Below the pieces are notes generated by a model that was not told where the DNA came from, did no database searches, and saw only the letters and a program-made list of their open reading frames with translations. The position numbers and the translations under genes were made by a program. Positions 32,763-35,076 of a stretch of DNA of 64,000 bases are shown here, one piece after another. Source of the DNA: Hymenobacter pini (GTDB lineage: Bacteria > Bacteroidota > Bacteroidia > Cytophagales > Hymenobacteraceae). The stretch spans positions 62,001 through 126,000 of the forward strand of contig NZ_JAIZZH010000004.1 in assembly GCF_020421205.1 (NCBI RefSeq), written 5' to 3'. The first letter of the stretch is position 1. Every line of letters begins with the position of its first letter.

Positions 32763-32850
32763 ATTATTTTATCAATCCGAATGGATAGTCAGCAGGACTA
32801 ACCGCTAATTGATAAACCTAGGCTCCTCGCTTTGCTCGGAATGACAATAA

Positions 32851-32882
32851 AAAAGGGCCGCACCTTTCGGAGCGGCCCTTTT
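32851..32882 (-). terminator. Intrinsic terminator of the first small lipoprotein
   Basis: AAAAGGGCCGC / GCGGCCCTTTT forms an 11-bp perfect stem ending in a T-run on the minus strand, 25 bases past the stop. Confidence 0.85.
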
Positions 32883-32906
32883 CTGTGCGCCGAGAGGCGC
32901 GCCTGC

Positions 32907-33128
32907 TTACTTAGCGTCAGCCGAGTCAGCAGCGTTTTCCATAGCGTCAGCTTTAGCGTCAGCCGAGTCACGAACGGCGTCAGCCTTTTCTTCCATGGCG
33001 TCAGCTTTAGCTTCGCCAGAAGCTTCTACGTTTTCAGCAGCTTGCTCCTGAGCATCTTCTTTCTTGCTGTCGCAAGAAGCGAAAGAGAACGAAGCGGCAG
33101 CCAGGGCGAGGAACAGTACTTTTTTCAT
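32907..33128 (-). CDS. Small acidic/Ala-rich lipoprotein, copy 1
   Basis: The ATG at 33128 gives 73 residues with a lipoprotein signal MKKVLFLALAAASFSFASC (Cys 19). The mature part is an E/A/K/D-rich amphipathic tail with EAKADAMEE-type heptads (DAKADAMENAADSADAK). It is nearly identical in plan to the gene at 33365-33601, and both have the same promoter signature and terminators. Coiled-coil-forming surface lipoproteins of this kind could stabilise the envelope, but no function is known. Confidence 0.72.
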   Translation of the reverse strand: MKKVLFLALAAASFSFASCDSKKEDAQEQAAENVEASGEAKADAMEEKADAVRDSADAKADAMENAADSADAK

Positions 33129-33209
33129 GATGAGGTTTGGTTGAGAGAATGAATTCGTTTTTTGTTGAATCAGGCCGCTTTTCACGAGGAACAGCGGCGA
33201 AATTCAGCT

Positions 33210-33240
33210 CTTTATTCCCGCATGTTGAGAAGGTAACCCA
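33210..33240 (-). promoter_or_regulatory. Shared promoter signature, copy 1
   Basis: Minus strand TGGGTTACCTTCT, 13 bases, TAAAG. The same arrangement with exactly 13 bases stands before the second paralog. It does not fit the TTTG/TAnnTTTG promoter. Confidence 0.55.
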
Positions 33241-33304
33241 ACAGTAGAATATTTTTTTCTACGGGGCTGTCTACCTGAGCAGTGCCCAGCATTACACCAA
33301 CCAA

Positions 33305-33338
33305 AAAAGCCTGCCCTCCGTGGGGAGGGCAGGCTTTT
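33305..33338 (-). terminator. Intrinsic terminator of the second small lipoprotein
   Basis: AAAAGCCTGCCCTCC / GGAGGGCAGGCTTTT is a perfect 15-bp stem with loop GTGG and a T-run on the minus strand. Confidence 0.87.
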
Positions 33339-33364
33339 AGTCGGGCGCCGAGAAGCGCGCCGGC

Positions 33365-33601
33365 TTACTTGGCGTCTTGCGCGTCAGCAGCGTTTTCCAT
33401 AGCGTCAGCTTTGGCTTCGGTAGCGTTTTCTACCGAGTCAGCACCAGCTTCGTTGCCAGCAGCTTCCATAGCGTCGGCTTTAGCTTCGCCAGCCTCTTCT
33501 ACTTTCTCAGCCTGAGCTTCCTGAGCGTTTTCAGTCTTGCTGTCGCAAGAAGCGAAAGAGAACGAAGCAGCAGCCAGGGCGAGGAACAATACCTTTTTCA
33601 T
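33365..33601 (-). CDS. Small acidic/Ala-rich lipoprotein, copy 2
   Basis: This 78-residue paralog has an identical 22-residue start (MKKVLFLALAAASFSFASCD, then SK), Cys19 as lipid site, and an acidic coiled-coil-like tail with two EAKADAME heptads. Copy 1 lies downstream after an independent terminator. The nearly unchanged signal peptide and the shared promoter indicate a recent tandem duplication. The tail is more diverged than the signal. Confidence 0.75.
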   Translation of the reverse strand: MKKVLFLALAAASFSFASCDSKTENAQEAQAEKVEEAGEAKADAMEAAGNEAGADSVENATEAKADAMENAADAQDAK

Positions 33602-33669
33602 GGTGGGGTAAATTGAGAGAATGAAATTTCAATTGGAGAAGATTCACCGGTTTCTGCCGAGAATCGAGG

Positions 33670-33700
33670 CTTTATCTGGGTTTAGCCAGAAGGTAACCCA
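33670..33700 (-). promoter_or_regulatory. Shared promoter signature, copy 2
   Basis: Minus strand TGGGTTACCTTCT, 13 bases, TAAAG, identical in layout to the site before copy 1. It ends 68 bases before the start codon. Confidence 0.55.
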
Positions 33701-33753: not shown

Positions 33754-35076
33754 CTACTTTTTGCGGAACACGATACCGATGGGCACGCCGGTGAAGTCGA
33801 AGTTCTCGCGCAAGCGGTTCTCGAGGTAGCGGGCGTAGCTTTCCTTCACGTATTGGGGCAGGTTGCAGAAGAATGCAAACACCGGGTTGTGCGTGGGCAG
33901 CTGGGTGGCGTACTTGATGCGGACCATTTTGCCCTTCTGGATGGGCGGCGGGTACTTCTCAATTTCCTTCAGCATCACCTCGTTCAGTTCCGATGTAGGA
34001 ATTTTGCGGCGCTTGTTCTCGTACACGTCAATGGCCGTTTCAATGGCCTTGTGCACGCGCTGTTTGTTGAGCACCGAAATGAAGATGATGGGCGGGTAGC
34101 TGATGGGGGCAATTTTCTCCCGAATCTTGTCTTCGAACTCCTTGGCTGTGTTGGTTTCCTTGTTCTCGATGAGGTCCCACTTGTTCACCAGAATCACCAG
34201 GCCCTTACGGTTCTTATCGGCTAGGCCGATGATGTTCAGGTCCTGGGCCTCAATGCCGCGGGTGGCGTCGAGCATCATGATGCATACGTCTGACTCTTCG
34301 AGGGCCCGGATGGAGCGCAGCACCGAGTAGAACTCCACGTCTTCGTGCACTTTGGTTTTGCGGCGCAGCCCGGCCGTATCTACCAGCATAAACTCTTTGC
34401 CGAAGGCATTGTAGCGAGCTTGGATGGAGTCGCGGGTAGTGCCGGCAATGTCCGTCACGATGCTCCGGTCGGTGCCCAGCAGTAGGTTCACGAACGAGGA
34501 CTTACCCACGTTAGGACGGCCTACTACGGCAATTTTCGGGATGCCCAAGTCGGGCTCTTCTTCCCCTACTTCCTCAAAGTGGCTGATAACGGCATCGAGC
34601 AAGTCACCGGTACCCGAGCCGCTCTGCGAGCTGATGGGGTAGATTTCGCCGTCGCCAATGCCCAGCGTGTAAAACTCACCGGCGGCATGGGCACGGGCGT
34701 TGGTATCGGCTTTATTAGCGACGATGTAGATGGGCTTTTTGCCCTGGTAGCGGCGCAGCACGTTGGCAAACTCCTCATCGAGGTGATGCACACCGGCGTC
34801 CACGTCCACCATAAACAGCACCACATCGGCTTCTTCAATAGCCAGCTTTACCTGCTTGTTGATTTCGCCTTCGAAGATGTCGTCGGAGTTGTGCACGTAC
34901 CCGCCCGTATCGATGACGGTGTAGTAGGTACCGGTCCACTCGCCGTAGCCGTAGTGTCGGTCACGGGTTACGCCGCTCTCGTTGTCCATGATGGCCTTGC
35001 GCTGGCCTACGAGGCGGTTGAACAGGGTGGACTTGCCCACGTTGGGACGGCCCACAATAGCAATGGTATTCTTCAT
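33754..35076 (-). CDS. der: Ribosome biogenesis GTPase Der (EngA)
   Basis: The 440-residue protein has two consecutive GTPase domains: P-loops GRPNVGKSTLFN (residues 8-19) and GRPNVGKSSFVN (near 185), each with switch DTxG and NKxD (NKAD; NKWD) motifs, then a KH-like C-terminal domain. The tandem arrangement is diagnostic of Der, which acts in 50S subunit assembly. Length is standard. It lies 179 bases downstream of era, across the palindromic element at 35161-35255. Confidence 0.97.
   Translation of the reverse strand: MKNTIAIVGRPNVGKSTLFNRLVGQRKAIMDNESGVTRDRHYGYGEWTGTYYTVIDTGGYVHNSDDIFEGEINKQVKLAIEEADVVLFMVDVDAGVHHLDEEFANVLRRYQGKKPIYIVANKADTNARAHAAGEFYTLGIGDGEIYPISSQSGSGTGDLLDAVISHFEEVGEEEPDLGIPKIAVVGRPNVGKSSFVNLLLGTDRSIVTDIAGTTRDSIQARYNAFGKEFMLVDTAGLRRKTKVHEDVEFYSVLRSIRALEESDVCIMMLDATRGIEAQDLNIIGLADKNRKGLVILVNKWDLIENKETNTAKEFEDKIREKIAPISYPPIIFISVLNKQRVHKAIETAIDVYENKRRKIPTSELNEVMLKEIEKYPPPIQKGKMVRIKYATQLPTHNPVFAFFCNLPQYVKESYARYLENRLRENFDFTGVPIGIVFRKK

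Follow-up and report, generated by a model that had tools for sequence, protein, structure and literature searches.

A probable ECF sigma factor promoter before Hymenobacter lipoprotein genes, and a candidate anti-sigma factor fused to a DegS-like protease

Two small lipoprotein genes of Hymenobacter pini, lying in tandem within a stretch of 64,000 nucleotides (hereafter the window), are preceded by a two-box element that recurs before lipoprotein genes and before one ECF sigma factor gene across Hymenobacter-type genomes. Taken jointly, the observations are very probably best explained if the element is the promoter of this ECF factor, the next gene encodes its anti-sigma factor and the whole forms a self-contained envelope-stress circuit. 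In the product of that next gene, one chain bears an anti-sigma-like domain, a membrane helix and a protease resembling DegS.

The two-box element in the window

The minus strand of the window carries TGGGTTACCTTCT at 33700-33688 (paralog A) and at 33240-33228 (paralog B), and TAAAG follows exactly 13 bases later in both copies (33674-33670 and 33214-33210). An earlier note, made from the letters of this DNA, had read both paralogs as preceded by TGGGTTACCTTCT-N13-TAAAG, with an identical 13-base element and a differing spacer, and had described the products as small acidic lipoproteins. All of this is borne out: both copies stand at those coordinates, only 2 of the first 11 of the 13 spacer bases are alike, and the proteins of 78 and 73 aa have a mature pI of 4.05 and 4.10, respectively. 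The features of the locus are the following:

33754..35076, minus strand: der (EngA) GTPase gene (PF01926 1.2e-56, PF14714 7.2e-32)
33688..33700, minus strand: TGGGTTACCTTCT, -35-like box (core GGTTACC) upstream of paralog A, conserved in orthologs
33670..33676, minus strand: GATAAAG, -10-like box of paralog A, 15 bases after GGTTACC and 68 nt before the ATG
33365..33601, minus strand: paralog A, 78-aa acidic lipoprotein, lipobox FASC, pI 4.05
33303..33338, minus strand: terminator-like hairpin 3' of paralog A, stem -29.0 kcal/mol
33228..33240, minus strand: TGGGTTACCTTCT, -35-like box upstream of paralog B
33210..33216, minus strand: AATAAAG, -10-like box of paralog B, 15 bases after GGTTACC and 81 nt before the ATG
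32907..33128, minus strand: paralog B, 73-aa acidic lipoprotein, start ATG 33128
32849..32883, minus strand: terminator-like hairpin 3' of paralog B, -36.2 kcal/mol (longer stretch folded)

The pair lies directly downstream of der, which is a neighbour of the lipoprotein locus and stands outside the regulon. For paralog B, a GTG at 33185 was rejected as the start in favour of the ATG at 33128. Terminator-like hairpins after both genes, which were read by eye and then folded (a simple terminator scan listed neither), make paralogs A and B look like separate transcription units. Paralog B also carries CDSKKED, in which K-(D/E)2 stands further from the Cys than in C-X-K-(D/E)2, the optimum given for the surface export signal (PMC5080379).

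A genome search for GTTACCTTCT-N12..14-TAAAG returned these two places only and none for the reversed pattern; the exact 13-mer TGGGTTACCTTCT has no further copy in the genome of 5,147,199 bases. Scanning the window with up to 3 mismatches gave 26 matches against 13.9 expected, and 1 of 100 shuffles reached 26. This count alone would not have settled the motif; the orthologs, described below, settle the question. Both window copies lack the first T of the genus -10 consensus, TATNAAG.

The promoter class across the genus

Searched for without mismatch in 61 Hymenobacter-type genomes, GGTTACC-N15-TATNAAG gave 90 sites, spread over 50 of the genomes, whereas the reversed control gave 5. Lipoprotein genes, as called by a lipobox pattern that is also positive at 426 of 4000 random positions within the same loci, begin just downstream of 83 of these sites, while six stand before one ECF sigma gene and one elsewhere. 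The tally was made in two readings, 82 sites (75 lipoprotein, six ECF, one other) and then eight, all before lipoproteins; one of the 83 has a lipoprotein start interrupted by unread bases (L300). When the spacer was varied from N12 to N18, the 61 genomes gave 27 control matches and 122 sites, of which N15 accounts for 90 and the other spacings for 32. At N16, lipoproteins follow 13 of 16 sites. For N12, N13, N14 and N17 together, the figure is one of 16, namely an N14 site of G003 that precedes the ortholog of the window gene (L017), and N18 gave zero sites in the 61 genomes. A fixed spacing and near-exclusive lipoprotein targets are what the promoter of a sigma factor would show. The strict N15 pattern finds no site in 11 of the 61 genomes and the ECF gene is present in all 11, so some sites escape this pattern.

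A search of this kind can return pattern-like sites only and would overlook other target classes; within this scope, almost all targets that can be recognised in the genus are lipoproteins, most of them small and acidic or rich in Thr/Ala. They are not all small, since a lipoprotein of 301 aa, which has a membrane stretch at its C-terminus, stands behind the same promoter in two genomes (L113:49-951 and L139:56-958). Two tandem Gly/Ser/Thr-rich lipoproteins were seen in L136 and L141, with a spacer of 16 before the first and of 15 before the second; they have signal peptides in common with the window pair and a different mature part. An Arch_flagellin Pfam match of the lipoprotein in L040 scored under the cut-off and was set aside as spurious.

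The ECF sigma gene and its fused partner

The sigma gene that carries the element and the gene that follows it are located as follows:

G000:C10:313600-314181, outside the window: ECF sigma gene, 193 aa (TIGR02937, PF04542)
G000:C10:314271-315464: partner gene, 397 aa, directly after the ECF gene

The class profile TIGR02937 recognises the sigma factor above its cut-off (1.6e-15, 57.1 bits versus 42.9), as does PF04542 (7.8e-7, 29.2 bits versus 24). Concerning region 4, a Pfam match is absent and the TIGR02937 alignment reaches residue 183 of 193; many of the invariant columns belong to the C-terminal GYTNADNAKNQKYKCL stretch. The protein of the window genome is 98% identical to a sigma factor of Hymenobacter metallilatus. 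A single copy (E <=1e-50) is present in 60 of the 61 genus genomes, and the exception, an assembly of 340 contigs (G059), has no ECF match, yet a site stands before a lipoprotein in it (L298). Among the 95 genus sites examined, 16 stand before the ECF gene, and in the Hymenobacter sites the element ends 11 nt (once 12) before its ATG. In the window genome one element faces the ECF gene, while a second, divergent one faces a small lipoprotein that shares the promoter region. Two boxes at a fixed spacing are thus found before both the sigma gene and its targets, which is the arrangement of an ECF-dependent promoter.

An ECF-alignment scan of named genomes returned more than 80 loci, of which the best 80 (641,430 bases) are considered here. 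The partner is directly downstream of the ECF gene in 79 of these best 80, and the last one (L284) ends at the contig end. Its length is 335-398 aa, with 428 aa in L218 when counted from an earlier ATG. The structure model of the partner (mean pLDDT 85, pTM 0.53) predicts helices 4-15, 21-33 and 35-96 on the presumed cytoplasmic side and a helix 109-149 with the hydrophobic stretch in it. Beyond this, it predicts a helix at 154-181 and a trypsin fold, and then a helix and a strand at the C-terminus. The catalytic His-Asp-Ser triad of an HtrA/DegS serine protease domain (peptidase S1C) is kept in 79/79 homologs from the best 80 loci, and PF13365 is found in 45/45 partner members. In a structure comparison with DegS-deltaPDZ that covered residues 140-360 only, residues 191-358 gave a Z of 19.8, and HtrA1 also reached a Z near 20. 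PDZ is absent among the 11 Pfam families found in the 45 members and the model ends about 35 residues past the protease fold; the partner is not classed as DegS because this domain is missing. The tail after the protease (residues 378-396 in L214, and homologs) reads QQ-x-KKLQDYVF-x-VKVY in most of the 20 tails compared; a plain protease would not usually end in this way, and the tail may serve as a regulatory strand.

For the N-terminal domain, no anti-sigma family occurs among the same 11 Pfam families of the 45 members. Modelled alone, the N-terminus gave eight top Foldseek matches that all come from sigma/anti-sigma complexes (E 1.1-3.6), the three complexes (RslA, ChrR and SigK entries) being named here by entry title. 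The antisigma model NF052375 matched 14 of 44 members at E up to 0.01, below its cut-off. A sequence search of the PDB placed PPAR receptors first, at E 0.12 and up, which were taken as chance matches, and RslA (3hug) at E 0.63. Judged by any one of these tests, the case for an anti-sigma domain is weak. The gene order and the predicted topology are those of a class I anti-sigma factor (ASDI), which lies beside the sigma gene and has one membrane helix and an extracytoplasmic domain.

One might suppose that the ECF factor reads the promoters but is controlled otherwise, the partner being a quality-control protease of the HtrA type whose helix bundle at the N-terminus is unrelated. The weak likeness of this bundle to anti-sigma domains would agree with such a view, as would the figure of only 6% given for Bacteroidetes ECFs with a class I anti-sigma domain nearby (PMC7406223). 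We nevertheless consider it unlikely, given the almost invariable position of the gene directly after the ECF gene, the usual layout of helix bundle, membrane helix and extracytoplasmic domain, and the provenance of the eight best fold matches. An anti-sigma role of the partner is also in line with a related sigma group (L182-L184), where the gene after the sigma gene lacks a protease (and has no NCBIfam match in the two tested) and a Do-family HtrA gene stands divergently beside the sigma gene in 3/3 loci; these HtrA genes, all interrupted by the end of the stretch, score 395-414 bits, with the cut-off at 416. Adjacency in this group and fusion in the other support a working link between both functions. 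In a phylum sample of 247 genomes, 31 matches to the partner were found at E <=1e-30, 16 of which span the whole fused protein and 15 the protease part only.

The module beyond the genus

The genera named among the best 80 loci are Hymenobacter, Solirubrum, Pontibacter, Adhaeribacter, Rufibacter, Spirosoma, Larkinella, Fibrivirga, Mucilaginibacter, Parapedobacter, Lacibacter, Flavihumibacter and Flaviaesturariibacter. In these loci the pattern GGTTAC-N14..17-TA[TC]NAA has 159 sites, and two control patterns have 4 each. Specifically, 76 sites stand before the ECF gene (in 75 of the 80 loci), a further 62 lie within 700 bases on the divergent strand, and 21 are elsewhere; the five loci that were missed (L229, L238, L239, L240 and L260) carry GGTTAC with CATTAA or GAATTAA, which a looser pattern finds. 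A divergent small lipoprotein is encoded in 75 of the best 80 loci, behind a strict site in 53, a weaker one in 12 and none in 10. The logos were built from sites chosen by the pattern and most of their conservation is there by construction; the G before TATTAA and the T at the fourth base, each present in 98% of 71 ECF-upstream sites of the best 80 loci, are positions that the pattern leaves unfixed. In many genomes (L230-L247 and others) the ECF gene's own promoter has GGTTAC without the second C and a GTATTAA second box, and the lipoprotein promoters mostly retain GGTTACCTTTT and GTATNAAG. Possibly the promoters differ in strength from one target to the next. Searched for genome-wide in 16 genomes outside the genus, GGTTACC-N15-TATNAA had 27 sites versus 27 controls, thus no excess; by their coordinates, nine of the 27 sites are close to the ECF gene. 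A dispersed regulon is accordingly established for the Hymenobacter-type genus only.

The earlier note had also remarked that the signature is unlike the TTTG/TAnnTTTG promoter of the window, and had offered an ECF-type sigma factor or an activator as its reader. The remark was correct, as the second box is not TAnnTTTG, the primary-sigma box of Bacteroidota. As for the reader, two boxes 15-16 bases apart, an element before a single-copy ECF gene and before the lipoprotein divergent from it, and the conservation of this arrangement in other genera all favour the sigma factor. That GGTTACC is an activator binding site upstream of promoters read by another sigma factor has some appeal on account of the nearly palindromic core (GGT-N-ACC dyad symmetry). 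It is quite improbable, however, with a second box at a fixed gap of 15-16 bases that has further constant positions and differs from the primary-sigma box, and with the element preceding the ECF gene in 75 of the best 80 loci; moreover, no activator gene was recognised among the neighbours in the two fully listed loci.

Conservation of the element before orthologs

A search with the lipoprotein gave a match in 39 of 59 relatives' genomes, and the 30 best-matching loci, the own copy included, were taken as the ortholog set. GGTTACC-N13..17-TA[TC]NAA[G/C], mostly with N15, occurs within the last 200 bases before the ATG in 27 of these 30 best loci, and near matches occur in the other three, which are the own copy, L039 (with CATTAAG) and L030 (with GGTTACT). 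The conserved core in the orthologs is GGTTACC-N15-TATAAAG; TTCT is variable, and the TAAAG of the window is the end of the TATNAAG box. The earlier note had allowed that the motif might be duplicated junk absent from relatives, and a full or near match was found in 30/30 best ortholog loci. The paralogs are indeed tandem duplicates (56 of 78 aligned positions identical) and tandem copies also exist in G006, G013 and G077, but a functionless remnant of recent duplication has virtually no chance as the explanation of the shared 13-mer and is ruled out by the ortholog and control counts, because 27 of the 30 best ortholog loci keep both boxes and three have near matches, while the spacer has diverged with the boxes kept and the element also precedes single orthologs in relatives and other lipoproteins. 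In two other families (L334, L335), PG1828-type lipoproteins lie just 3' of der with a TTTG-type upstream region and without GGTTACC-TATNAAG, which suggests that, in the Hymenobacter lineage, ECF control was acquired by a lipoprotein linked to der.

The proposed circuit and known systems

GGTTACC would be the -35 box and (G)TATNAAG the -10 box, 15-16 bases apart, of promoters through which the ECF factor would activate its own gene and a set of mostly small lipoproteins, including the window pair and the divergent lipoprotein. The steps past the promoter are modelled on E. coli RpoE-RseA-DegS (PMC8103513). The partner would begin with an anti-sigma domain of three helices in the cytoplasm, followed by one membrane helix, another helix and, in the periplasm, a serine protease of the DegS/HtrA type without PDZ. 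At rest, the anti-sigma domain would hold the sigma factor at the inner membrane; upon envelope damage the fused protease may become active and make the site-1 cut in its own or a neighbour's chain. The freed sigma factor would then read GGTTACC-N15/16-TATNAAG promoters, its own included, and lipoprotein output would rise. Reinforcement of the outer membrane is the favoured putative role of these lipoproteins, and the divergent lipoprotein possibly acts back on the protease as a feedback ligand. Induction of the window pair in a special condition, as the earlier note supposed, is plausible.

In common with RpoE-RseA-DegS (PMC8103513), the proposed system has an anti-sigma factor in the membrane that holds an ECF factor, a periplasmic serine protease of the DegS type, positive autoregulation and an envelope theme. 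In E. coli the anti-sigma and site-1 protease jobs are split between RseA and DegS (PMC8103513), whereas here the anti-sigma-like domain and the protease share one chain without PDZ. Furthermore, no RseB-like protein was recognised among the neighbours scanned here, and the recognisable targets are lipoproteins, unlike the chaperones and sRNAs of the E. coli system. Closer in taxonomy is EcfO-Reo of Bacteroides/Phocaeicola, a Bacteroidota ECF/anti-sigma pair linked to envelope stress with lipoprotein (NigD) targets, which shows that ECF factors of this phylum can have lipoproteins as targets (PMC9308784, PMC13114119). The accounts cited describe Reo as spanning from the cytoplasm to the surface with an outer-membrane beta-barrel, and describe no protease (PMC9308784, PMC13114119); the present partner differs in having a single predicted membrane helix and a trypsin-like domain. 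The anti-sigma factors reported from thetaiotaomicron likewise belong to Bacteroidota and affect the outer membrane, but are dual membrane-spanning, and a fused protease is unmentioned in the account cited (PMC13088901).

The window pair matches the PG1828 lipoprotein family (NF050142, PG1828_fam_lipo) weakly, paralog A at 3.2e-6 (27.8 bits) and paralog B at 1.9e-6 (28.5 bits), both below the curated cut-off of 50 bits and hence outside the family. Two lipoproteins of the G160 ECF locus score above that cut-off, in-frame neighbouring sequence included. We take PG1827 and PG1828 to be neighbouring genes in P. gingivalis. PG1827 is an ECF factor, SigH (PMC5607195), and PG1828 is triacylated (PMC10126205). 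A check of the family covered 18 of 20 loci, P. gingivalis not among them, with ORFs of at least 110 aa in 1.5 kb on each side. The motif was present at this ECF locus in four of the 18 (L336, L347, L348 and L349) and without an ECF gene within 1.5 kb in one (L338), and neither motif nor ECF gene was found within 1.5 kb in the other 13 (L331-L335, L337, L339, L340 and L342-L346). With 13 of 18 family loci showing neither, the idea that PG1827/PG1828 are the same ECF-lipoprotein pair was left unconfirmed.

Significance

An ECF factor with autoregulation and a membrane anti-sigma factor is of a known kind. A literature search, which did not extend to the main ECF reclassification literature, found no description of a trypsin-like protease in one chain with an anti-sigma factor. 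Rather tentatively, we propose a one-chain stress sensor that unites anti-sigma factor and site-1 protease, could make the first cut without a second protein and controls a sigma factor whose recognisable targets in the genus are almost exclusively lipoproteins. If it is true that the fused protein cuts itself, the RseA/DegS relay would be compressed into one molecule. Apart from the partner, the analysis provides a promoter code that can be tested, and a list of targets, for an ECF factor common to Hymenobacter, Pontibacter, Spirosoma, Mucilaginibacter and relatives, in a phylum where few ECFs (6%) are recorded with a recognisable class I anti-sigma partner nearby (PMC7406223). With these comes an initial entry point to the regulation of small Bacteroidota lipoproteins whose function is unknown.
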